DNA from: a virus
Length of the DNA stretch: 26,969 nt
Virus record (IMG/VR): IMGVR_UViG_3300032323_000922
Span: 1-26,969 of that record
Reading direction: 5' to 3' (one strand)
Shown here: piece by piece, positions 1-25,135 of the stretch
How positions within the stretch are numbered: the stretch's first letter is position 1
How the letters are laid out: each line of letters begins with the position of its first letter
Notes under the pieces: model-generated
Databases searched by the model: none
Told to the model about the DNA's origin: nothing
Seen by the model: the letters and a program-made list of their open reading frames with translations, nothing else
Program-made: the position numbers and the translations under genes

Positions 1-94
1 CGGTCTTGGCGACAATATTTTTATTAGTGAATAGCAAAAAATATTTGTCTTGTATTGTCACGATTCCCACTTTGTTGTTACTCTGTTTCATCAT
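1..94 (-). CDS. 5' end of an unrecognised minus-strand gene, cut by the window edge
   Basis: The minus strand reads open for 31 codons from an ATG-ATG pair at 94/91 to the window edge. The N-terminus begins MMKQSNNKVGIVTIQDKYF. An AAGGA ribosome binding site (complement of 100-104) lies five bases before the first ATG, and a well-formed promoter precedes it at 140-168. These signals make a real gene likely although only about 31 residues are visible. The visible part is alternately hydrophobic (KVGIVTI, YFLLFTN), as in a small beta-rich soluble protein; no signal peptide or domain is recognisable. It is transcribed away from all other genes here, so it probably belongs to a different functional block of the phage genome. 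Function unknown. Confidence 0.6.
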   Translation of the reverse strand, partial: MMKQSNNKVGIVTIQDKYFLLFTNKNIVAKT

Positions 95-112
95 TATCGT
101 CCTTAACGGAAA

Positions 113-133
113 AACACTCCTTGAGAGAGTGTT
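113..133 (-). promoter_or_regulatory. Hairpin at the predicted 5' end of the minus-strand transcript
   Basis: AACACTC (113-119) and GAGTGTT (127-133) are perfect reverse complements around a seven-base loop. Read on the minus strand, the stem is followed by a short T run. The promoter at 140-145 would start transcription around 133-134, so the stem would form the very 5' end of the mRNA. It could protect the 5' end from decay or act as a weak attenuator before the gene at 1-94. The stem is short, so a strong terminator is unlikely. Confidence 0.45.
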
Positions 134-139
134 CTGTCA

Positions 140-168
140 ATTATAGCACTTTTTTATCTGATTTTCAA
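140..168 (-). promoter_or_regulatory. Minus-strand housekeeping-type promoter (TTGAAA, 17 bp, TGCTATAAT)
   Basis: On the minus strand a TTGAAA -35 box (163-168) is separated by exactly 17 bases from a consensus TATAAT -10 box (140-145), which also has the extended TGn element (146-148). This is the best primary-sigma promoter in the window and the only one with a clear -35. It drives the gene at 1-94. Confidence 0.75.
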
Positions 169-180
169 GAGTATCTCTTG
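166..180. promoter_or_regulatory. 15-bp inverted repeat between divergent promoters, candidate operator
   Basis: CAAGAG-TAT-CTCTTG is a perfect inverted repeat with a three-base centre. Its left arm overlaps the minus-strand -35 box (163-168) and its right arm touches the TG of the + strand extended -10 element (181-189). A protein bound here could affect both promoters. I saw no other copy at the other promoters in the window. Operator function is inference. Confidence 0.4.
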
Positions 181-189
181 TGATATAAT
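181..189 (+). promoter_or_regulatory. Extended -10 promoter with leaderless spacing
   Basis: TGATATAAT (-10 box at 184-189) is followed after nine bases by the ATG at 199. No Shine-Dalgarno sequence lies between, and no convincing -35 lies upstream. A start point 7-10 bases past the -10 box would put the mRNA 5' end at or within about three bases of the ATG. Confidence 0.65.
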
Positions 190-198
190 TAAACTACT

Positions 199-597
199 AT
201 GGCAGCCTCTGGAAGAAGTCCAATTTATGACCTACCATTCCCACTTTCTGGGGATGTAGTTGACGTATCTGGGGATATTCAGCTATTAGCCTTAAAACTA
301 GATACATCAATTAATGAAATCATTCAAGACGTAATCGGATTGATGGTCACAGTTAATACAGAAAACGGTATTGACGTAACCTATGACGATACCACTGGGA
401 AATTAAACTTTATTCTTAATGAAAATTACACAAAAGATCTAGTAGCTCCAATTGTTGCTCACGATGATCACATCGGAATGACCGCAGTATACAACACCAC
501 AACAAACAAAGTTACCTTCGAAGTCGTTGGCGGAGGAGGTGGAGGAGGCGGAAGTAGCAATGCTTCCCTATCCGATATGTGGTGGCTTGGCATCTAG
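199..597 (+). CDS. Short tail-fibre stalk-like protein (132 aa)
   Basis: The N-terminus (MAASGRSPIYDLPFPLSGD, then a predicted amphipathic stretch DIQLLALKLDTSINEI to about residue 43) resembles the N-terminal module common to phage tail fibres, which begins with a Tyr-x-x-Pro-x-Pro segment and a short helix. The middle (about 50-108) is beta-prone. A run of eight glycines near 111-118 and a hydrophobic C-terminus, SLSDMWWLGI, follow. The protein is far shorter than a normal fibre, so it looks like a stalk or base segment that needs a partner. It is the first gene of the rightward block and starts from a predicted leaderless mRNA. The ATG at 199 is chosen because it matches the -10 spacing. 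A virion role is likely; the exact place in the particle is unknown. Confidence 0.6.
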   Translation: MAASGRSPIYDLPFPLSGDVVDVSGDIQLLALKLDTSINEIIQDVIGLMVTVNTENGIDVTYDDTTGKLNFILNENYTKDLVAPIVAHDDHIGMTAVYNTTTNKVTFEVVGGGGGGGGSSNASLSDMWWLGI

Positions 598-599
598 TG

Positions 600-608
600 T
601 GATATAAT
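600..608 (+). promoter_or_regulatory. Extended -10 promoter with a short leader
   Basis: TGATATAAT (-10 box 603-608) is followed by TAA, then a GAGAGG ribosome binding site (617-622) and the ATG at 629. The same core element is used as at 181, but here the mRNA would carry a leader of about 14 bases. Confidence 0.65.
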
Positions 609-628
609 TAACTTTTGAGAGGAACACA

Positions 629-3600
629 ATGCCAGGCTATCTAAGACCAGACACAGGGGCGTTTCTAGATGATATTTATTTCGACCCCGTAAATAAACTT
701 CGCAATTCAAGCCCACAAGCCCTTGTCGATACTGACTTTGAATACGGTATGCAGATTTCCAAGTGGGAAAACTTGGGACTTATGAACAACCGCCCTTTTG
801 CCTTTCCATCTTCAAACACGATTCCAAACATTACTGCTATTAACCTTCCTCAAAATAGCACAACAGTAACCGTAACAACTGGAACTACTGCTCATGGACT
901 ATCTGTTGGTCTTCCAGTAAACGTTCAGGACACATTTTTGTCAATCGCAAACGGTAACTTTATTATTGAGTCAATTCCAACATCAACAACTTTTACCTAT
1001 ACAGCACGTTCAATCAATATTAGCTCTACTATCAATGCTATTTTTGATATTAACAAGACAGCTCTTTATATTGGAACTGCCTACACAAACTCAGCAATTG
1101 GTGGAAACCCAACACTGTCATACACTGGTGGCAGCAGGGCTATCACTGTAACTACCACAGTTCCACACGGATTGTCGCTTGGTAGTGAAATTGCTATTTC
1201 TGGAATTACAGCAGATACGAATGCTCCAAATGGATCCTTCTATGTATCTAGAATTGTTAATGCAACTCAGTTTGTTTATTATGCAAACGCTATTCCTACA
1301 GGATCTCTTGGTGGCTCATCTGTTAAGATTTATGTTCGTCCACAAGCTCAATTCCTACACCGCCCTTTTGACGGTGGTGTTTTGTTTAGTGCAAACGCAT
1401 CTTCAAACAATCAGCAGGCAGTTCGTCAGACTCGTCGCTACTTCCGTTACCAGTCTGGTAAGGGTATGCAGATTTCATCAGGTACAGTTCTAAAGCCAAA
1501 CCTTTCAATCGAGGCTTTGACTGCCAATGGAAATATTATTACAGTTCAGACTAAGGAGCAGCACAACCTTCAGCCTGGAAGCACAATTAAGATTTTTGGT
1601 GCAGACCAGCCAGACTACAATGGTGAGTTTACCATTATTGAAATTTTGGGGTACAACCTATTTCAGGTACTAGCTCCAACATCACCACAGGACGCTACAG
1701 CATCTGGAAACTACTATGTAACCATTGACACCTGGTTTGGATGTTCAAACCGAATTGGAATGTTTGATAGCCAAAACGGAGTGTTCTTTGAGTTTGATGG
1801 ACAAACACTTTATGTTGTTCGCAGAAGCTCAACATATCAGATTTCTGGAAAAGTAACAGTCACTAATGGATCAAATACAGTCTCAAAAACCAATGCAGCC
1901 TTTCCAACAAACTTTTCAAGACAGCTAGATCCAGGAGACTTTATTGTTATTCGTGGTCAGTCATATCGTGTAGAAAGTATTGCGAATGACGACTCTATGA
2001 CTATTTCACCATCATACCGTGGAGCTACGGCTTCATATGCTCTAGTAGCAAAAACTGTAGACACAAAAATTCCACAGTCTGAGTGGAACCTTGACACCAT
2101 GGACGGAAACGGTCCTTCAGGATACGACCTAGACCTAACCAAGATGCAGATGTTTTACATTGACTACTCTTGGTATGGTGCTGGGTATATTCGTTGGGGA
2201 CTTCGTGGAGTAAATGGAGACATTACTCCAGTACACAAGCTAGCGAATAACAACGTAAACGCTGAAGCCTATATGCGTTCTGGAAACATTCCAGCTCGTT
2301 ACGAGTCAAGCACATTTTCTAAGACTACAAAAATTACTAGCAATGTTTCAGTAACTGCCACAACTATAAACGTAGAAAGCACAGAAGGATTCCCAGACAC
2401 AGGAACGCTTCTTATTAGAAGTGGAACTGTTTATGAGTACATCAACTATTCTGGTAAAACAGCCACATCGTTTACTGGCGTTACTCGTGAAAAGACTGGT
2501 GCAACCATAAATGTAACTATTGCAGCAGGAAGTAACTTGGGCACTGTAGTGTCTACTACTGGAATTCAGGTTGGACAAAGAATTATTAGCCCAAACTTTC
2601 CACAGAACACATATGTTTCTGAAATTGATGGAGCACAGATTAAGTTTAACACTGCTGCAATTATTGCTAATCCAACAAACGTAATATTCTCACCAATGTC
2701 AACTGGCACTGCACAAGAATTTGCATTTACACCAACAACTCCAGTATCTGTTGAACAAGCATTCCCAACATTCTCAGCATCAATTTCTCACTGGGGAACG
2801 TCTGTAATTATGGATGGTGGTTTTGATGATGACAAGTCTCTTATCTTTACTTATGGTCAAACCAAAAAGACCACAATCCCTGCACCAGTTCCAGAAGATG
2901 CACCACTTACAAAAACAGCTACAGGAACAATTGGATCATTTACAATTGCTCTTAATAACAATACAGATGTTGTTGAGGGTATGACAATTAATAGACCAGA
3001 GGTTAGTAACGTAGAAATTCCAGGAATTCAACAAGACACAGTAGTTACTTTAGTAAGACCAGGAGTTGTTACGCTATCTTTGCCACTAACTGCAAACCTT
3101 GATTCAGATACTGTGCTATTTACTGGGGGTAACTCAAAAGCTCTATTCTCAATTCGTGTAGCACCATCAGTAGATAATGGTATTTCTGCTAACTTTGGTC
3201 AAAGAGAACTTATTAACCGTATGCAGCTAACTTTGGAATCGCTTGGAGTGCTGTCCGCTACAGCTGACTCAAACTTGCTAGTTACTGCAATCTTGAATGG
3301 TGTACCAACATCAGCAACACCTTGGCAGAATGTTGTTAGAGGATCTACAGCACTAACAAACTCATCTCTATCTCAAATTGCTGACTATGCTGATGATGAA
3401 GAAACCATTATTCTTGGTGGAGAAATTACTGGTGGTTTTTATGTACAGGGAACATCATCTATTGACTTGACAAACGTGCGTGACCTTGGAAACTCAGTGC
3501 TTGGAGGTGGATCAACCTCTGCAAATGCTAACGTATATCCAGACGGTCCAGACGTTCTTTCAATTGTTGTTACAAACCTATCAAGTACCGCCGCAGAAGT

Positions 3601-3637
3601 AACTGGCCGCTTGAGTTGGAAAGAAGCCCAGGCATAA
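629..3637 (+). CDS. Large virion structural protein (1002 aa) with repeated beta modules
   Basis: Residues about 370-550 carry NRIGMFD, FFEFDGQTLYVVRR, GPSGYDLDLTKMQ and IDYSWYGAGYIRWGLRG (511-527), then EAYMRSGNIPARYE. From memory this block matches a conserved structural protein of cyanophage and other marine T4-like phage virions; I could not check it. The N-terminal third has repeated modules with the signature H-(G/N)-L-x-x-G-x-x-(V/I)-x-I: AHGLSVG (88-94), PHGLSLG (179-185) and QHNLQPG (311-317). Each is followed by a segment like those in phage tail Ig-like domains. The rest is Thr/Asn/Ser rich and beta-prone. GAGAGG lies seven bases before the ATG. It is probably a baseplate- or fibre-associated component. 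No enzymatic motif is visible. Confidence 0.7.
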   Translation: MPGYLRPDTGAFLDDIYFDPVNKLRNSSPQALVDTDFEYGMQISKWENLGLMNNRPFAFPSSNTIPNITAINLPQNSTTVTVTTGTTAHGLSVGLPVNVQDTFLSIANGNFIIESIPTSTTFTYTARSINISSTINAIFDINKTALYIGTAYTNSAIGGNPTLSYTGGSRAITVTTTVPHGLSLGSEIAISGITADTNAPNGSFYVSRIVNATQFVYYANAIPTGSLGGSSVKIYVRPQAQFLHRPFDGGVLFSANASSNNQQAVRQTRRYFRYQSGKGMQISSGTVLKPNLSIEALTANGNIITVQTKEQHNLQPGSTIKIFGADQPDYNGEFTIIEILGYNLFQVLAPTSPQDATASGNYYVTIDTWFGCSNRIGMFDSQNGVFFEFDGQTLYVVRRSSTYQISGKVTVTNGSNTVSKTNAAFPTNFSRQLDPGDFIVIRGQSYRVESIANDDSMTISPSYRGATASYALVAKTVDTKIPQSEWNLDTMDGNGPSGYDLDLTKMQMFYIDYSWYGAGYIRWGLRGVNGDITPVHKLANNNVNAEAYMRSGNIPARYESSTFSKTTKITSNVSVTATTINVESTEGFPDTGTLLIRSGTVYEYINYSGKTATSFTGVTREKTGATINVTIAAGSNLGTVVSTTGIQVGQRIISPNFPQNTYVSEIDGAQIKFNTAAIIANPTNVIFSPMSTGTAQEFAFTPTTPVSVEQAFPTFSASISHWGTSVIMDGGFDDDKSLIFTYGQTKKTTIPAPVPEDAPLTKTATGTIGSFTIALNNNTDVVEGMTINRPEVSNVEIPGIQQDTVVTLVRPGVVTLSLPLTANLDSDTVLFTGGNSKALFSIRVAPSVDNGISANFGQRELINRMQLTLESLGVLSATADSNLLVTAILNGVPTSATPWQNVVRGSTALTNSSLSQIADYADDEETIILGGEITGGFYVQGTSSIDLTNVRDLGNSVLGGGSTSANANVYPDGPDVLSIVVTNLSSTAAEVTGRLSWKEAQA

Positions 3638-8674: not shown

Positions 8675-9037
8675 ATGGCAAGCTTTACAAAACTACATTT
8701 AAGCAACAGCCCTGGCGGAGAGCCAATTGCAGTAGCTGCAACAGCAACAGCAGGAACCCTAATTCACGCTACTGGAACATCGTCTTCAGTTATTGATGAA
8801 ATTTGGTTGTATGCGGCTAACACTGATACCACAGACAGAAAACTAACAATTGAGTTCGGTGGTGTAGCTGTTCCAGAAGACATTATTGAAATCACTATTC
8901 CAGCAGAGTCTGGATTAACTTTAGTTATTCCTGGTCTAATTTTGAGTGGTACGGGATCAGCAGCAAGAAACGTAAGAGCTTTTGCAGCCACAGCTAACGT
9001 GCTAACTATATCAGGATACGTTAATAGGATTTCGTAA
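8675..9037 (+). CDS. Family A-like adaptor protein (120 aa)
   Basis: A beta-rich protein with IDEIWLYAANTD near 40-51, a KLTIEFGG strand near 58-65, LTLVIPGLIL near 81-90 and a final NVLTISGYVNRIS. The strand order and length fit the adaptor family, but identity with the copies at 5644 and 13133 is low, so it is a distant member at best. AGGA at 8664-8667 overlaps the stop of the stalk gene. Its last base is shared with the next start (TAATG), which indicates coupling with the glycine-rich tip gene. I infer a link between the 97-residue stalk and the glycine-rich tip. Confidence 0.52.
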   Translation: MASFTKLHLSNSPGGEPIAVAATATAGTLIHATGTSSSVIDEIWLYAANTDTTDRKLTIEFGGVAVPEDIIEITIPAESGLTLVIPGLILSGTGSAARNVRAFAATANVLTISGYVNRIS

Positions 9038-9936
9038 TGCAAAGAAATAGAGGGTTTGTTTCTAGCAGGGTTAGTTCTTGGAGTGGAACCTCTCCACTAA
9101 CAAGACCTAGATTGCTTGGCCCATCATTTTCACTACAATACCTTGTAATAGCAGGCGGTGGTGGTGGTATGTGGACTGGATCAGGTGGTGGTGCAGGTGG
9201 TATGCTAGAGGGCCAGTCACCTTTTAACTCTAACACTATATATACCGCAACCGTTGGAGCTGGAGGCCCTGGTGTAGTTTTTCCTGCAGATCCTGGTAAT
9301 GCAACAAATAGTTCTTTTGGTTCTCTAATTGCTGTTGCTGGAGGATCTGGAATGACCCACGGAGGACTTGACGGTTTTGCTGGAGGTTCAGGTGGTGGAT
9401 CTCCAATAAAAACTACGGGTCCAGCAGCTGGTGTTGGCGGAGCTGGAGTTAGAGGCCAAGGATTTAGGGGTGGAAATGGTTTTGTTGAGTCAAACTGGCA
9501 GGGTGTGTGTGGTGGAGGCGGAGGTGCAGCAGGGGTTGGTTTTAATGCTGGATCAGCATCAACCCCCAATGGCCAAGGCGGACCAGGCAAGGTTTCTGAT
9601 ATAACTGGAACAGAAGTAACTTATGCTGGTGGTGGAGCTGGAGGAGATGTCAATGGTTCTTATGGAACAACTGGAGGCGTTGGTGGTGGTGGCCGCTCAA
9701 ATGCCGATGCTCCAGGAACTGCTGGAACTGCAAACAGGGGTGCTGGCGGCGGTGGCGGTGGTTTTTCAGGTACTTATCACGCTGGTGGCTCAGGTGGCTC
9801 TGGGATTATAATTCTGCGTTATTCATCAGTGCTTACGATAAATCTTGGAGCAGGGTTAACTGGGTCAACAGCTACAGTTGGCTCAGATAGGGTAACAACA
9901 ATTACGGCAGGAACTGGAAACGTTAGTTGGTCCTAA
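9037..9936 (+). CDS. Glycine-rich tip protein with an extra C-terminal segment (299 aa)
   Basis: The family C domain runs from LQYLVIAGGGGG (33-44) to GGSGGSGIIILRY (250-262), with many GGG/GG runs separated by short loops. Such domains occur in phage and metagenomic tail proteins. In Salmonella phage S16 the gp38 adhesin uses parallel polyglycine helices at the fibre tip to hold variable receptor-binding loops, so a similar role is plausible here. Two oddities: the upstream FTSSGTF strand found in the other three C copies is missing, replaced by a basic N-terminus (MQRNRGFVSSRVSSW). In addition, 37 residues follow the domain (LTINLGAGLTGSTATV, then VTTITAGTGNVSW), a fibre-type module. Thus it looks like a recombinant. 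Confidence 0.65.
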   Translation: MQRNRGFVSSRVSSWSGTSPLTRPRLLGPSFSLQYLVIAGGGGGMWTGSGGGAGGMLEGQSPFNSNTIYTATVGAGGPGVVFPADPGNATNSSFGSLIAVAGGSGMTHGGLDGFAGGSGGGSPIKTTGPAAGVGGAGVRGQGFRGGNGFVESNWQGVCGGGGGAAGVGFNAGSASTPNGQGGPGKVSDITGTEVTYAGGGAGGDVNGSYGTTGGVGGGGRSNADAPGTAGTANRGAGGGGGGFSGTYHAGGSGGSGIIILRYSSVLTINLGAGLTGSTATVGSDRVTTITAGTGNVSWS

Positions 9937-12087: not shown

Positions 12088-12912
12088 GTGCTTATTCCTT
12101 TTGGAGTCTTTGCAGCTTCGGGTGCTGCAGTATCGGTTGTAACTGGTGGAACTCTAGCCTCTGATTCAACATATTTTTATAGAACTTTTACTAGCTCTGG
12201 AACCCTTTCTGTTTCTAATGTGCCACTAACCGCAGATCTATTAGTTATTGGTGGCGGTGGTCCAGCTGGAGTTAACGGTGGCGGTGGCGGTGGAGCTGGT
12301 GGTGTGGTATTTCTATCAAACCAAACACTAAGTGGGTCATTTCCCATAACTGTTGGAGCAGGAGCAGCTTGGCAAAGTAGTGCTACAGACTCTGTCATTT
12401 CAATGCCACCCTATAACTTGGATCTTGCAAGAGCATTAAAGGGTGGTTGGGGCAGATCTAGAGACAACCCCCCAACATCTACACAAACGAATGTTGGTTC
12501 TGGTGGTGGTGGTGCTGGATATACATCTGGTGCTGGAAACAATCAGGGAACTGGAACTGTAGGCCAGGGCCAAAATGGTGGTCCAGGAACAGATTATGGT
12601 CTTGGAGCCAATGCTGCAGGTGGCGGAGGCGGAGGCTTTTCTGAGGTAGGTGGTTCTGGAGCTTTTAATCAAGGTGGAAAAGGTGGAAATGGAACAAACG
12701 CCTATTCATCTTGGGGCATAGCAACCAATACTGGTCAAGATATTTCTGGTGTTAGGTGGTATGCTGGCGGCGGCGGAGGATGGATTACTGTTAATGGCAC
12801 TGGAGGTGCACCAGGTAATGGTAGTCAAGGTGCAAACACTGGCGGCGGCGGAACAAACGTTCCTGGAAACTCTGGAATTGTTATTGTTCGCTATCTAAGA
12901 TCAGCCGCTTAG
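12088..12912 (+). CDS. Glycine-rich tip protein (274 aa)
   Basis: GTG start, chosen because AGGAG at 12076-12080 is seven bases away. A short N-terminal region leads to FYRTFTSSGTL (30-40) and LLVIGGGGPAG (51-61). A long glycine-rich domain follows and closes with GNSGIVIVRYLRSAA. This is the complete family C layout also found at the C-termini of 14525 and 17019: an FTSSG-T/S-F strand, about ten residues, then (E/D)-(Y/L)-(L/V)-V-(V/I)-(A/I)-G-G-G-G, and finally G-(S/N)-(S)-G-(V/I)-V-I-(V/I)-R-Y. Here it is a free-standing protein with no B domain attached. A receptor-contacting tip with variable loops between glycine runs is the likely role, by analogy with S16-type gp38. Confidence 0.67.
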   Translation: MLIPFGVFAASGAAVSVVTGGTLASDSTYFYRTFTSSGTLSVSNVPLTADLLVIGGGGPAGVNGGGGGGAGGVVFLSNQTLSGSFPITVGAGAAWQSSATDSVISMPPYNLDLARALKGGWGRSRDNPPTSTQTNVGSGGGGAGYTSGAGNNQGTGTVGQGQNGGPGTDYGLGANAAGGGGGGFSEVGGSGAFNQGGKGGNGTNAYSSWGIATNTGQDISGVRWYAGGGGGWITVNGTGGAPGNGSQGANTGGGGTNVPGNSGIVIVRYLRSAA

Positions 12913-14046: not shown

Positions 14047-14525
14047 TGCCAACAAAAACATATGTTTCAATAAGTAGCGTTTCATTGATAGCCTCAAGTG
14101 CTTCTGTAGATTTTTTATCTATACCGCAAAATTATAGAGACCTGGTGCTGGCCATATCTCATCCAGGCCCAGCATCTGCTACAGAGGTGGCTATTCGTTT
14201 TAATTCAGACTCTGGAAATAACTATTCAAGAGTTTATGTAGAAGGAAGATCTGAAGGTTTGGGCACTGCGTTTGTGGCGACAGAAAGTGCTAATTTTGTT
14301 GGGGCCTATGGAACTGGACAGTCTGTAAATATTTGCAATATCTTTGACTACTCAGTAGTAGATAAGCACAAGCTTGTCCTTACAAATGCCACAACTTTGG
14401 AAGGTATTAAAGTTGTATCAAATAGATGGATAAACACTTCACCAGTAACATCTATAACCGCCATATTATTTAATACAAGTTTTGGTGCTGGATCTACTCT
14501 TACTCTTTATGGAATTGAGGCATAA
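14046..14525 (+). CDS. Family B tip protein, second member of triplet 2 (159 aa)
   Basis: The start is the ATG at 14046, which shares its A with the previous TAA stop. An upstream in-frame ATG at 13959 would read 29 residues through the previous gene and add a cysteine-rich segment unlike any relative, so I reject it. Features: VDFLSIPQNYRDLVLAISH near 24-42, IRFNSDSGNNYSRVYVEGRS near 52-71, NIFDYSVVDKHKLVL near 99-113, RWINTSPVTSITAI, and the end GAGSTLTLYGIEA. It is the shortest and one of the most typical B copies. Its stop again shares a base with the next ATG. Confidence 0.65.
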   Translation: MPTKTYVSISSVSLIASSASVDFLSIPQNYRDLVLAISHPGPASATEVAIRFNSDSGNNYSRVYVEGRSEGLGTAFVATESANFVGAYGTGQSVNICNIFDYSVVDKHKLVLTNATTLEGIKVVSNRWINTSPVTSITAILFNTSFGAGSTLTLYGIEA

Positions 14526-15841
14526 TGTCATATACCCTAATCGACAGAGTAGTCCTAAGCTCAGACGCATCTACCATTCAGTTTAACACTATTCCTCAAA
14601 ACTATACTGATTTAGTTATGGTTAGTAGCGTCAGAAGTACTACTTCGGCAGCATTTACTGATTTGTTTTTAAGAATTAATGGAGATGCTGGAAACAACTA
14701 CTCTACTAGAAGATTTTTTGGAAGTGGTATTTCGGCTAGCACAGATACCCAATTTTCAACTGATGTAATGAGAGTTGGACTTATTAATGCATCAACCTCT
14801 ACGGCCTCAACCTTTAGTAATGGTTCAGTTGTTATTACAAACTATAATAGCTCAACAACAAAATTTTTAAACTCTTCTAGCGTTATGGCAAATAACTCAA
14901 GCACATCCTATCAGCTGCTTAGCGGTAGCCTTTGGAATAGCACTCAACCTGTTTTGAGCCTAACCCTTTTAACATTTGGTAATTTTCTTTCTGGATCATC
15001 TGTATCTCTTTATGGTATTAATCGTAGATCTACAATTGCAAGAAACCCACAGGGTATTGGTGGAAGTATAAATCAAGCTAATGGATATTGGTATCACACA
15101 TTTACAAGCTCTGGATCTTTTGTTCCATTTGGTGATATGCAAGTAGAGTATGTAGTAATTGGTGGAGGTGGGTCTTCTCCTAATCAAAATACTGGTGCTG
15201 GCGGAGCGGGTGGCTATCGATCATCAGTTATCGGAGAAATGTCTGGAGGTGGATCAGCTAGCGAGCCACTGGTTTTTGTTTCTGCATACACAAACTACCC
15301 TATCACTATTGGTGCAGGTGGAACGGGCGGTGCCAACGGTAATAGTTCTACGTTTTCAAGCATAACATCTCTTGGTGGCGGTGCTGGAGGCACAAACTTT
15401 GGTGCTGGTGCATCAGGAGGCAGTGGTGGCGGCGGTGGCTATGATACTCGTTTAGGCGGTGCAGGAACCACTAGTCAGGGTTTTGCTGGAGGTAGCTCAA
15501 GGTCATCTTCTTCACCATTTGGAACTGGTGGAGGTGGTGGAGCTGGTAGCGTAGGTGGTAACAAGTCATCTTCGGGTGCTGGAGGAGACGGTGGTCGTGG
15601 AGTATTTTCTTCTATAACTGGAACACTTTTAGAACGAGCTGGAGGAGGATCTGGGTCTTCAGAAGGTGGAACTCAAGCTATTGCAACTGGTGGTGGAGGA
15701 AATGGTAGTAGGGTAAATTTATCAGCTGCAACCGCAGGGGCAGCAAACACTGGTGGAGGCGGTGGCGGTGCCGCAGGTGGGACAAACAGTCCAGGAGCTG
15801 CTGGCGGCTCAGGTGTTGTAATTATTAGGTATAGGGCCTAG
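14525..15841 (+). CDS. Family B tip domain fused to a glycine-rich domain, third member of triplet 2 (438 aa)
   Basis: Residues 1-165 are a family B domain (NTIPQNYTDLVMVSSVRST, RINGDAGNNYSTRRFFGSG, WNSTQPVLSL, SGSSVSLYGI). A 25-residue linker follows. Residues about 189-438 are a family C domain: YWYHTFTSSGSFVPFGDMQV, EYVVIGGGGS, long glycine runs, then GSGVVIIRYRA. The same B-plus-C fusion is found in the third gene of triplet 3 at 17019. In triplet 1 the third gene has only the B part. A receptor-binding tip in which the B domain provides attachment and the glycine-rich domain the contact surface is a reasonable reading, by analogy with polyglycine adhesins. Start at the TAATG overlap. Confidence 0.66.
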   Translation: MSYTLIDRVVLSSDASTIQFNTIPQNYTDLVMVSSVRSTTSAAFTDLFLRINGDAGNNYSTRRFFGSGISASTDTQFSTDVMRVGLINASTSTASTFSNGSVVITNYNSSTTKFLNSSSVMANNSSTSYQLLSGSLWNSTQPVLSLTLLTFGNFLSGSSVSLYGINRRSTIARNPQGIGGSINQANGYWYHTFTSSGSFVPFGDMQVEYVVIGGGGSSPNQNTGAGGAGGYRSSVIGEMSGGGSASEPLVFVSAYTNYPITIGAGGTGGANGNSSTFSSITSLGGGAGGTNFGAGASGGSGGGGGYDTRLGGAGTTSQGFAGGSSRSSSSPFGTGGGGGAGSVGGNKSSSGAGGDGGRGVFSSITGTLLERAGGGSGSSEGGTQAIATGGGGNGSRVNLSAATAGAANTGGGGGGAAGGTNSPGAAGGSGVVIIRYRA

Positions 15842-16488: not shown

Positions 16489-17019
16489 ATGGCACTTCAG
16501 TCAATTACAAGTCTTGCAAACATTACCTTACAATCAAGCAGCCTTTCTGTAATTTTTTCTGGAATCCCTCAAACCTATAGAGATCTTATTTTAGTATCGT
16601 CTGTAAGATCTACACGAAATGACACTGCTGACTATATATCGGTTAGACTTAATGGTGATTCTGGAAATAATTATTTTAATTTAGCTGCTTGGGCAGATAA
16701 CAACAACACTGTAGTTTCAAACTCATCTAGCACAGCAACTGATAATGGTTATGGGCCCAACGTTTTAGGGTCTACAGCAACTGCTAATTCTTATAGTGTT
16801 AATACTTTCAACTTTATAGACTATTCAGCAACAGATAAACACAAAGTATACATCCTTAGATCAGCAGCTCCAGGAATAGGTGGGGCTCAGGTTGAAATGG
16901 CAGTTACTAGATGGGCAAGCCTATCTGGTCTTAATTCTATTACTCTGTCTTTGCCTTATACTGGCCCTAGCCAGTTTATGGCTGGATCAACCTTTAGTTT
17001 GTATGGAAGGATATCTTAA
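16489..17019 (+). CDS. Family B tip protein, second member of triplet 3 (176 aa)
   Basis: A typical B domain without extension: SVIFSGIPQTYRDLILVSSV near 19-38, then RSTRND; VRLNGDSGNNYFNLAAW near 46-62; NFIDYSATDKHKVYIL near 103-118; RWASLSGLNSITLSL; and the end MAGSTFSLYGRIS. A GGGGTGA within the last codons of the previous gene is the only candidate ribosome binding site, so translational coupling is probable. It resembles 14046, its counterpart in triplet 2, in both motifs and length (D-Y-S-x-x-D-K-H-K is found only in these two). This again supports triplet-level duplication. Confidence 0.63.
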   Translation: MALQSITSLANITLQSSSLSVIFSGIPQTYRDLILVSSVRSTRNDTADYISVRLNGDSGNNYFNLAAWADNNNTVVSNSSSTATDNGYGPNVLGSTATANSYSVNTFNFIDYSATDKHKVYILRSAAPGIGGAQVEMAVTRWASLSGLNSITLSLPYTGPSQFMAGSTFSLYGRIS

Positions 17020-18386
17020 TGTTAAAATATCACATACAAACAGTCGAAATAAGTTCAACACAAAACAATATTCTATTAACTGGAATTCCACAAACTTACA
17101 ATGATTTAGTTGTTGTTGTATCTGGCAGAACTACAAGAACAGGAAATAACGTATCAACTCCCACATTAAATATAAATTCAGATCCTGCTAACCATTCTAG
17201 TCGTATTCTGTATACAGATCCGTCAACTGGTAGTTTTGCAATAAGCAACCTAAGTTATATTCACGGAAGCTATATACCTACCGCCAGTGCCACAGCAAAT
17301 ACATTTGGAAGCACAAGCTTTCACATTCCCAACTATACATTAAGCACAACCAAGACTGTGTCTGTTGATGGAGTTGCTGAAAATAATGGACAATCTGTAA
17401 CAGCTATTGTTTCAGGTTTATGGACTGGAACATCACCAGTTACATCTGTTACTGTTGGAGTTGTTCCTGGAGAAGGCGACTTTGTTGCAGGATCAACTAT
17501 TTCTATTTATGGTATTAGGCGTGGCTCAGATGGGGTAACTAGCAGATCCCCAGCAGCACAAGGTGGAGCCATAACTACTTCTGGTGGATATACAATTCAC
17601 ACCTTTACTAGTTCAGGAACATTTTTTGCTCAAAGATCACTTGAGGCTGAATATTTGGTGGTTGCTGGTGGAGGAGGTGGAGGCCGTGGTAGAGCAGGAG
17701 GAGGCGGAGCTGGAGGATACCTAGCTGGACAATTTTCTGCAGTAGCATCTCAAGGATATCAGGTAGTGGTTGGGGCTGGAGGACCTGGTGCAGTTAACAA
17801 TCAGTTTAGGGCAGACTCTGGACAAGATTCTTTAATTTCTGGATTGACAGCAACAAATTCTATTTTTTCAGTTACCTCAATAGGAGGCGGCGGTGGTGGA
17901 TCTAACGGAGGAGTTAGCGATGCATCTTTTGGTGGTGGGCCTGGTGGCTCTGGTGGTGGCAGTGCTATATGGACAACGACTGTTGGTCTTGGAACAGCTG
18001 GACAGGGTAATAATGGTGGTGGAGGTACAGCAGCTTGGCCTACCTTTCCAGTAACTACTGGTGGCGGAGGAGCAGGTGCTGCAGGACAAGCAAGATTTAA
18101 TACAACAAAGCATACTGATGGAGGTGTTGGACTTTCTTCATCAATAACTGGATCTGCAGTTTTTAGAGCTGGCGGTGGCGGTGGCGGTGGCGACACTGGA
18201 ACAACTCGTGGAGAAGGTGGCAATGGTGGCGGTGCTCCAGGAGGAATTTCTGCTATAGGTGGAAATGGTACGGCAGCAACTGGCGGTGGCGGCGGTGGCG
18301 GCGGTAGAAATGCTGGCACTGGTGAAGAGTTTAATGGTGGCAACGGAGGATCTGGCGTTGTAATTATCAGATATTTAACGCCATAG
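17019..18386 (+). CDS. Family B tip domain fused to a glycine-rich domain, third member of triplet 3 (455 aa)
   Basis: Residues 1-166 form a B domain (NNILLTGIPQTYNDLVVVVS, SGLWTGTSPVTSV, VAGSTISIYGI). Residues about 190-455 are a family C domain starting GYTIHTFTSSGTF (190-202) and EYLVVAGGGG (211-220) and ending GGSGVVIIRYLTP. The glycine region is the longest in the window and holds several in-frame GGN codon runs (18171-18191, 18282-18305). AAGGA eight to twelve bases before the ATG, plus the TAATG overlap, supports the start. It is the partner of 14525. A receptor-contact role for the glycine domain is inferred from known polyglycine phage adhesins. Confidence 0.66.
   Translation: MLKYHIQTVEISSTQNNILLTGIPQTYNDLVVVVSGRTTRTGNNVSTPTLNINSDPANHSSRILYTDPSTGSFAISNLSYIHGSYIPTASATANTFGSTSFHIPNYTLSTTKTVSVDGVAENNGQSVTAIVSGLWTGTSPVTSVTVGVVPGEGDFVAGSTISIYGIRRGSDGVTSRSPAAQGGAITTSGGYTIHTFTSSGTFFAQRSLEAEYLVVAGGGGGGRGRAGGGGAGGYLAGQFSAVASQGYQVVVGAGGPGAVNNQFRADSGQDSLISGLTATNSIFSVTSIGGGGGGSNGGVSDASFGGGPGGSGGGSAIWTTTVGLGTAGQGNNGGGGTAAWPTFPVTTGGGGAGAAGQARFNTTKHTDGGVGLSSSITGSAVFRAGGGGGGGDTGTTRGEGGNGGGAPGGISAIGGNGTAATGGGGGGGGRNAGTGEEFNGGNGGSGVVIIRYLTP
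18171..18305 (+). repeat. GGN codon-repeat tracts in a glycine-rich domain
   Basis: Runs of GGC/GGT codons at 18171-18191 and 18282-18305 encode six to eight consecutive glycines each. As the unit is three bases, gain or loss by slippage would keep the reading frame and change only glycine number. Similar shorter runs are present in the other three glycine-rich genes (around 9151-9200, 12250-12302, 15748-15780). Confidence 0.6.
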
Positions 18387-23123: not shown

Positions 23124-23507
23124 ATGGAAAACGATATCTTATCAAAAGTTGGCAACGTTCGCAGGCAAGTAATTGAAACAGACGTTGACTGGGGACTATA
23201 CGTATATAAAAAAGCAGACGGAAAGTACTTTACAGATGGCGAAGGAAACGTCTTAAACATACCCTCAATGAAGGGTGACCTCTCAAAGATTGCAGAGCTT
23301 TTTTCAGCAGCCAGATATAATGGCGATCCAGGTGATGGAGACGCCAAGTTTGTTCCTGGATTGACCAGGGTATCTGATGAGACATATTCAGAACAAGTAG
23401 ACCGTATGAAGCAGGGCTACATCCCATCCATGAACGATATTGGTGCATGGCAGGATGCTCAGAAGACTGTTGACGCATATGGCCAAGAAGCATTGGAAGT
23501 TGACTAA
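23124..23507 (+). CDS. Portal-adjacent protein of unknown function (127 aa)
   Basis: Starts MENDILSKVGNVRRQVIETD, then VDWGLYVYKKADGKYF, GDLSKIAELFSAARYNGDPG, FVPGLTRVSDETYSEQVDRM, and MNDIGAWQDAQKTVDAYGQE. A GTG two codons upstream (23118) is in frame but lies one base from the -10 box, so the ATG is preferred. The middle is a predicted mixed fold and the C-terminal third is helical. It overlaps the portal start by one base. I do not recognise the family. Its position before the portal, where terminase or head-tail proteins may lie, suggests a role in head assembly or DNA packaging, but nothing in the sequence proves it. Confidence 0.6.
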   Translation: MENDILSKVGNVRRQVIETDVDWGLYVYKKADGKYFTDGEGNVLNIPSMKGDLSKIAELFSAARYNGDPGDGDAKFVPGLTRVSDETYSEQVDRMKQGYIPSMNDIGAWQDAQKTVDAYGQEALEVD

Positions 23508-25135
23508 TGGACGAAAACCAGTATTACGTTGGGGCATCGCTAAATACCCAAGAAGAAGAGCTTAATAAGTTTAAAGAAGCTGACCCGTTTAATAAAAGCT
23601 GGGATGAGCTTAAAAATTATGCTGGTCTAGAGAAAAATTTTAAGCGTAGGACAGACAGGCTGATAAAAGCACAGTATGACTTTTCAGTTCCAACCAACGC
23701 CAACGTATCATCAGAAGAGTATCTAGCGTCTGCATCAGCAAGAAGCATGGGGGTAGACAGTGCTGGAAGTAAGCAGATTAATCCTGGATCAGTCTATCGC
23801 AACGGATACGGCTTATTTGACGTAATCACTCCACCATACAATGTTTACGAACTAGCAAACTACTATGACGCATCTTTTGCAAACCACGCAGCTATTGATG
23901 CTAAGGTAGCAAACATTGCTGGACTTGGATATTCATTCCACGTAACAGACAAAACCAATCTTGCTCTTGAGAGCAGAGAAGACAGCACTGCAGTTGACAA
24001 AGCTCGCAAGCGTATTGAGCGTATGAAGATTGAGCTACGTGATTGGCTAGAGTCTTTGAACGACGACGACTCTCTAACTACAACAATGAAGAAGATGCTA
24101 ATTGACTTTGAGTCAACTGGTAACGGATATCTTGAAATTGGAAGAACTGCACTAGGACAGATTGGATATGTTGGTCACGTGCCAGCTACAACTATTCGTG
24201 TTCGTAGACTTCGTGATGGCTACCTTCAGATTATTGGAAACAAGGTTGTTTACTTTAGAAACTTTGGGGCAAAAAATCCAAACCCAGTAACTGGTGACCC
24301 AAGACCAAATGAACTTATTCATTACAAGTCTTATTCACCACTAAACACTTTCTACGGAATTCCAGATATCCTATCTGCCGTTAGCTCTTTGATTGGTGAT
24401 TCACTTGCAGCACAATATAATATTGACTACTTCCAGAACAAGGCAGTGCCACGATACATTATTACTCTTAAGGGTGCAAAGCTTTCTGGAGATGCTGAAG
24501 ATAAGATGTTCCGCTTCTTGCAGACTGGACTAAAATCTCAGTCACACAGAACACTATACATTCCACTTCCAGGAGACTCAGACAACAACAAGGTTGAGTT
24601 TAAAATGGAGCCAATTGAAAACGGTATCCAAGAGGGATCATTTAAAGAGTACCGTAAGCAGAATAGGGATGACATTCTTATTGCTCACCAAGTTCCAATC
24701 TCAAAGCTAGGTGGAACTGACTCAGGCATTGCAGCAGCCATGTCTCAGGATCGTACATTTAAAGAGCAGGTTGCAAGGCCAGCACAGAAGCACCTAGAGA
24801 AAATCGTAAACAAGATTATCAAGGAAAAGACAGATATCCTAGAGCTTAAGTTCAACGAGCTAACTCTAACTGATGAGATTGCACAGTCTCAAATTCTAGA
24901 GCGTTATGTCCGTAATAAGATTATGGTGCCAAACGAAGCACGTGAATTGCTAGACCTTCCACAGCGTAAGGATGGCGATATGCCAATGGAGATGAACTCA
25001 CGTCAAGCAGCTGATGCCTCAGCTAACACAAGACAGGCTAGGCAAAGGGATGCAGAGCGAACCAACGAGTCTTCAGATAGCCCAGCTACCATTTCTGGAC
25101 GAAATGCACAAGGTGAAGGGCGAGCAAGCCAATAG
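23507..25135 (+). CDS. Portal protein, HK97/PBSX type (542 aa)
   Basis: Forms the ring at the capsid vertex through which DNA is packaged. Diagnostic segments: ITPPYNVYELANYYDASFAN (106-125), followed by HAAIDAKVANIAGLGYSF; DFESTGNGYLEIGRTALGQI (about 198-217) and VGHVPATTIRVRR; YGIPDILSAVSSLIGDSLAA (about 283-302); and EYRKQNRDDILIAHQVPISK (about 381-400), the classic PBSX-family portal signature. The C-terminus (from about 485) is polar, rich in Ala/Asp/Ser/Arg and probably disordered, a common portal feature. Length is normal for the family. TAATG overlap with the upstream gene; no strong ribosome binding site, so coupled. Confidence 0.92.
   Translation: MDENQYYVGASLNTQEEELNKFKEADPFNKSWDELKNYAGLEKNFKRRTDRLIKAQYDFSVPTNANVSSEEYLASASARSMGVDSAGSKQINPGSVYRNGYGLFDVITPPYNVYELANYYDASFANHAAIDAKVANIAGLGYSFHVTDKTNLALESREDSTAVDKARKRIERMKIELRDWLESLNDDDSLTTTMKKMLIDFESTGNGYLEIGRTALGQIGYVGHVPATTIRVRRLRDGYLQIIGNKVVYFRNFGAKNPNPVTGDPRPNELIHYKSYSPLNTFYGIPDILSAVSSLIGDSLAAQYNIDYFQNKAVPRYIITLKGAKLSGDAEDKMFRFLQTGLKSQSHRTLYIPLPGDSDNNKVEFKMEPIENGIQEGSFKEYRKQNRDDILIAHQVPISKLGGTDSGIAAAMSQDRTFKEQVARPAQKHLEKIVNKIIKEKTDILELKFNELTLTDEIAQSQILERYVRNKIMVPNEARELLDLPQRKDGDMPMEMNSRQAADASANTRQARQRDAERTNESSDSPATISGRNAQGEGRASQ

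Follow-up and report, generated by a model that had tools for sequence, protein, structure and literature searches.

Lysis timing is a central phage decision and is usually explained by holins. Translational attenuators of the erm type carry a leader-peptide ORF whose ribosome can free a masked downstream ribosome-binding site (RBS), and the lysis gene of the RNA phage MS2 is translationally coupled, being opened by a ribosome that terminates upstream. The leader described here resembles the erm type in having a short upstream ORF whose ribosome could unmask a downstream RBS, but differs in that it has no antibiotic link, its peptide is weakly constrained, its target is a phage lysin-like gene, and any ribosome stalling on it would be hypothetical. 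With MS2 it would share a lysis gene opened by a ribosome that ends upstream; here, however, the phage has a genome of double-stranded DNA, and its leader combines a dedicated upstream ORF with separate covarying hairpins.

In phage T4, RNA structure sequesters the RBS of gene e (lysozyme), which is thought to prevent premature lysis (PMC3014915). The T4 lysozyme mRNA is the nearest functional precedent, sharing structured RNA around the RBS of a gene for a lysis enzyme. T4 escapes via late promoters that omit the 5' strand (PMC3014915), whereas the present leader is transcribed from a promoter of its own and includes an upstream ORF and two more hairpins. The glutamine riboswitch of the methylophage Melnitz is likewise a structured regulatory RNA from a phage of aquatic origin, and its link to lysis is speculative, but it belongs to a known riboswitch class and controls a tmRNA gene (PMC9004378). 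The leaders scanned here against Rfam matched no riboswitch family.

The DNA analysed (the window) is the whole of virus record IMGVR_UViG_3300032323_000922, 26,969 bases; L-numbers (L002, L003 and so on) are the names of loci compared with it. The minus half of a divergent promoter region in this record is read, tentatively and with slightly less than even confidence, as a promoter followed by the opening ~130 nt of a conserved structured leader, a putative cis-acting RNA that would limit translation of an NlpC/P60 lysin-like gene. The features concerned are:

163..168, minus strand: -35 TTGAAA of the leader promoter (consensus scan)
140..145, minus strand: -10 TATAAT of the leader promoter, with TG before it (sequence; kept in relatives)
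113..133, minus strand: hairpin P1, with which the predicted RNA begins and which a U-run follows (arms 133-127 and 119-113, AACACTC/GAGTGTT, 7 bp; covariation)
100..104, minus strand: Shine-Dalgarno-like (SD) AAGGA of the upstream ORF (sequence; AAGGAGG in many relatives)
1..94, minus strand: upstream ORF MMKQSNNKVGIVTIQDKYFLLFTNKNIVAKT..., 31 codons, open at the contig end (leader comparison)
11..49, minus strand: P2 hairpin GACAAAUAUUUUUU...AAAAAUAUUGUC (comparison and model match)
31..35, minus strand: GCUAU in the P2 loop, which complements the downstream RBS in relatives (P4; pairing tests), its partner being off the contig here
1..10, minus strand: start of the P3 region (GCCAAGACCG), which the contig end truncates (model match)
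166..180, unstranded: palindrome CAAGAGTATCTCTTG, present without conservation
179..189, plus strand: extended -10 promoter TGTGATATAAT, whose -35 position (162-167) overlaps the minus -35
199..597, plus strand: small ORF next to the head gene, nearly leaderless, its ATG lying 9 nt past the -10 (sequence)
181, 600 (600..608), 5612, 8354, 9961, 12931, 18404 and 25176, plus strand: TGNTATAAT sites (motif scan)

Divergent promoters and the adjoining palindrome

The original prediction for this DNA described a compact divergent control region with an operator-like repeat and a 5' hairpin. All of its elements (both promoters, the 15-bp inverted repeat and the 7-bp stem) were found in the sequence. 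The divergent region with its hairpin proved to be present and conserved, whereas the operator-like character of the repeat was not borne out. The minus promoter TTGAAA-17-TATAAT was the sole 11/12 match in two scans that jointly spanned the window. Among 40 distinct leader promoters, that of the window being one, the best-matching -35 with a spacing of 16-18 had on average 4.2 of 6 matches, against 2.5-2.8 at control spacings. The plus and minus promoters stand back to back, and because their -35 positions overlap they are probably not occupied simultaneously. A head-protein search placed L002 (81%) and L003 (66%) first among the best 80 loci; both retain the plus TGTGATATAATTAAACTACTATGG and the minus TTGAAA-17-TATAAT, while the intervening stretch differs in sequence and length. 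Conservation at this locus lies in the paired divergent promoters and in the 5' leader of the minus strand, and not in the palindrome.

Since CAAGAGTATCTCTTG overlaps the minus -35 and adjoins the plus extended -10, it could be taken for the operator of a phage repressor that switches both promoters, but such a role is scarcely credible. The repeat is gone from L002 and L003, the closest two relatives, though both promoters persist there. The whole record holds no second copy with up to one mismatch, and at up to two mismatches the repeat occurs in the records of 13 relatives at three places (2 of 13 records), none of them at this locus. Inverted repeats of this size are not rare: the window holds 12 with 6-bp arms and a 3-nt loop, where 20 dinucleotide shuffles average 7.75, and the size class of CAAGAGTATCTCTTG is not clearly above chance. 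Its outer letters are partly promoter letters, namely the TTG of the minus -35 and the TTG preceding the plus -10. The exact 15-mer was found in 107 other viral stretches, none of which gave a leader match in a scan of 333 loci. Neither the conserved nor the repeated copies by which a phage repressor operator is recognised were seen for CAAGAGTATCTCTTG, which was rejected as an operator.

The region had also been proposed as the switch between an early or middle block and the late block, a proposal that comparison with relatives does not support. The minus-strand gene of L002 stands alone as an NlpC/P60 gene; the genes to either side point the other way, among them that of the head protein on one side and that of a tail-fibre-like protein on the other. 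The genes on either side of the NlpC/P60 gene of L191 also run the opposite way, and one of those beyond it is weakly tail-fibre-like. Because the flanking genes point the other way, the NlpC/P60 gene is an inverted island in these two loci and not the edge of an early block. An early/late boundary was accordingly rejected, the minus gene of L002 being a lone lysin-like gene among opposite structural-type genes; in the window the change of direction resembles a block boundary only because the contig ends there.

The leader family and the gene it precedes

Measured outward from the minus start site, the leader is 98.5% identical to that of L003 over 133 nt and 96.2% identical to that of L191, while identity to L003 is 61.7% for the ORF at 199-597 and 68.6% for the head gene. 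Against L002 the values are 82.4% for the leader, 80.5% for the ORF and 77.3% for the head gene, the leader being hardly better kept than its neighbours. Near-identical leaders beside diverged neighbours, as in L003 and L191, might reflect a recent exchange of cassettes between phages and not function. This is improbable, as the lysins behind the near-identical leaders of L190 and L191 differ (37% identity) and distant leaders retain P1 and P3 in different letters.

The family was built by nhmmer with four leaders and then with 26, over all loci collected, after searches with the NlpC/P60 proteins and with a DNA pattern. It comprises 48 distinct leader rows from 46 contigs, with 8 further contigs carrying an identical leader. 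The DNA pattern, which is independent of the protein, picked out 48 stretches, 45 of them leaders. The following ORF bears the lysin (NlpC/P60) motif in 39 of the 48 distinct rows, the other nine being cut short or unclear in frame, and no other gene family was seen behind the leader in the 39 rows with a readable next ORF. Of 20 records searched with the leader model, 18 held a single match and the other two none under the cut-off.

The leader ends at an NlpC/P60-domain gene in the three cases tested (L002, L003/L190 and L191; Pfam E 4.2e-18 to 4.5e-17), and by eye these proteins have a hydrophobic signal-like N-terminus. The product is a candidate endolysin; the best PHROGs match of the L002 protein, a minor tail protein domain (2.2e-20), raises the alternative that the enzyme could have a tail-associated role. 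The window's own lysin gene lies beyond its left end, and the gene is assigned via the relatives.

The leaders of L002, L003, L329 and L286 gave no match at the Rfam gathering score, and an Rfam E-value search with window positions 1-700 and L217, L248, L249, L200, L243 and L211 gave only matches below the cut-offs. A pattern for one leader gave five matches in bacterial genome contigs, of which only L193 recurred in the leader scan (E 0.35). These five look like chance; the pattern fits only the L003-type leader, and the result does not show absence from bacterial genomes. Ten leader matches in an isolate-phage collection, all at E 0.7, were counted as no match, and the NlpC/P60 regions of Streptomyces phages L334 and L335 gave no leader-model match up to E 1. 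A literature search confined to openly available journal papers disclosed no comparable leader of an NlpC/P60 phage lysin. The leader would give a testable RNA element in environmental phages, for which the isolate-phage collection searched showed no match.

It is present in 31 of 80 relatives from the NlpC/P60 protein search; among the remaining 49, those inspected show at least two different leader types. In one type a stem flanks the SD and its outer pairs covary (CGACC..GGUCG, UGACC..GGUCA, CGCC..GGCG), often with AACUGAAUA or AACUUAAUA upstream. This type was seen ahead of NlpC/P60 genes at 18 loci (L201, L202, L206, L208, L213, L215, L218, L221, L223, L224, L227, L228, L232, L244, L252, L261, L265 and L272), and in the 15 of them that were scanned the leader gave no Rfam match. 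In phage locus L202, Rfam places a manA RNA between two tRNA genes (1539-1878). Short leaders with no more than a P1-like hairpin, a U-run and an SD precede the NlpC/P60 genes of L207, L229, L254, L255, L263, L276, L277, L222, L237 and L219, and several of these loci show a divergent ATGGC-type start upstream.

Leader structure and its possible action

Comparison gives the order promoter, P1, upstream ORF, P2, P3 and RBS along the minus leader. The window contains the promoter, P1 and P2, as well as most of the upstream ORF and the start of P3, with a leader model match at 1-51 (48.9 bits, 3' end cut); P4 and the downstream gene are taken from relatives. The stem predicted at the 5' end of the minus RNA, P1, is conserved with compensatory changes. 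In the arm-swap test, halves were set by position, identical arm pairs and rows cut by a contig end were dropped, and L301 was kept off the P1 test. None of 5000 swaps of the halves paired as well for P1 (37 distinct leaders) and none of 5000 shuffles for P3 (31 distinct leaders), which argues strongly for compensatory pairing in both. The signal was modest for P2 (161 of 5000 shuffles as good), in which one inner pair is CG in place of UA in 13 of 42 distinct rows, and weak for P4 taken alone (366 of 5000).

P1 is the most widespread part of the leader, and ten NlpC/P60 relatives without upstream ORF, P2 and P3 keep the promoter, a P1-like hairpin and a U-run right before the SD (e.g. L229, L263). 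The leader might instead act on RNA stability or transcription, P1 and the U-run serving to stabilise the 5' end or to terminate transcription early unless a phage factor intervenes, with P2 and P3 only shielding the RNA. We regard this as doubtful: it leaves unaccounted for the frequent stop of the upstream ORF in P2, the covarying P3 and the complementarity of loop and RBS, and the U-run is missing in some leaders (L298, L318).

Further pairing tests used alignment A6, which holds 47 selected sources and was fitted to the model, so that it is biased towards the model's structure; rows without upstream ORF are badly aligned in it, and its counts include a reverse-strand chance match (L248 minus), the cut window row and the rows without upstream ORF. 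For the model pairs of inner P2 and P3, 96.7% of cells were paired against 75.4% after shuffling, 65 cells were changed on both sides against 20.1, and the score was 0.553 against 0.198 (0 of 500 shuffles as high in each case). No excess was seen in the two counts described as those least inflated by relatedness, namely how many pairs were doubly changed and how many pair types occurred (204 and 135 of 500 shuffles as high). For P4, 89.4% of cells were paired against 86.8% (3 of 500 as high), slides giving 79.5% or less; the covariation score was 0.127 against 0.099 (6 of 500 as high), and the counts of doubly changed pairs and pair types were again without excess (150 and 363 of 500). Pairing of the P2 loop with the downstream RBS is thus a moderately supported prediction, with the clearest compensations in L249/L264 (AAGGCUAUC with GGUAGUCUU) and L191 (ACUA with UAGU). 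For 29 of 44 leaders the P2 loop holds the best complement to the RBS; the 5' arm of P1 does so for 14 of the remaining 15.

Although its length varies in frame, the upstream ORF reaches its stop within the P2 loop in 32 of 49 rows (30 of 47 contigs), and most rows have a clear SD ahead of it; it runs through P2 in L191 and apparently in the window. Set against the translated short upstream ORF with SD of an attenuator, the observations point both ways: SD, start and stop position are kept in most rows, but pN/pS is high and the ORF is absent or shifted in 11 of the 49. The exceptions comprise an early stop (2), another frame with a GTG start (6), a cut ORF (2) and no ORF (5). The peptide is weakly constrained (pN 0.225, pS 0.259, pN/pS ~0.87), as calculated from the 25 distinct ORFs among 31 rows, with 18 of the 49 left out (three that differ in length, four that are cut or repeats, six that start with GTG and five that lack the ORF).

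The five rows without upstream ORF retain P2-like and P3 parts flanked by conserved GCCA and AAC, and in such leaders the match of loop and RBS is kept (-8.5 kcal/mol in 5 of 5), which favours P4 as the shared core, with another trigger possible. The survival of these parts would also suit a ligand- or protein-sensing, riboswitch-like switch formed by P2-P3, to which the upstream ORF is an optional add-on. That reading is unlikely, given that few unpaired positions are conserved, by eye, for an aptamer and that the scanned leaders are without an Rfam match; we know of no ligand for P2-P3. A bolder version, to be regarded as decidedly speculative, makes P2-P3 and the RBS-pairing loop a new phage-borne class of sensory RNA, either a riboswitch or a sensor of ribosome state, by which lysis is timed; the upstream ORF would be an exchangeable input, and in other NlpC/P60 phages a second leader type, unrelated to this one, would serve the same end.

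The preferred reading is a translational brake, inferred because the stop position and the anti-RBS loop fit. The P2 loop (GCUAUC) would pair with GGUAGC at the downstream RBS and hold translation down; ribosomes on the upstream ORF, usually terminating inside the P2 loop, would cover the anti-RBS stretch, so that translation of this ORF would open the RBS and relieve the brake at least partly. A lysin that looks exported would thereby be restrained, and lysis tied to the translation state of the cell. If so, a shared structured leader linked to a lysin puts part of the lysis clock into the mRNA, and may help to set the time of host cell burst.

Counting against a brake opened by ribosomes are the weakly constrained peptide, the leaders without upstream ORF and the calculated cost of opening the RBS. 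The latter, predicted at 4.9 kcal/mol, was 3.3 with the P2 loop covered, 3.3 with P3 covered and 4.7 with an upstream control covered, and fell by more than 0.5 in 29 of 42, 35 of 42 and 12 of 37 cases, respectively (identical leaders, contig-end-cut rows and L301 dropped); the modelled effect is not specific to P2. For the masked RBS of an attenuator, the P4 tests are partly favourable and the opening calculation is not specific. Single folds were no better than shuffles for L190 (z -0.4) and L191 (z -1.2), and better for L002 (z -2.4).

Plus-strand promoter motifs and structural genes

The TGNTATAAT extended -10 motif is recurrent: the plus strand has 8 copies and the minus strand one, where 100 shuffles give 0.67 and 0.87, and the plus extended -10 at 181 is one of this series. 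At five of the eight plus sites (181, 8354, 9961, 12931 and 25176), in the structural block, a start codon lies 7-9 nt past the -10; because of this short distance the mRNAs from these five sites would be nearly leaderless. A layout similar to that of the small ORF beside the head gene, TGNTATA[AC]T followed by ATGG after 6-7 nt, was found in 21 of 23 relatives examined.

The portal protein (23507-25135) is ~47% identical to portals of Streptomyces phages. For the head protein (629-3637), the nearest proteins in that collection are from cyanophages, with 46% identity to a Synechococcus phage. The affinities of the two differ, and the structural block appears to be mosaic. Four window proteins (9037-9936, 12088-12912, 14525-15841 and 17019-18386) match phrog_2295 with other genes between them, forming a repeated gene module.
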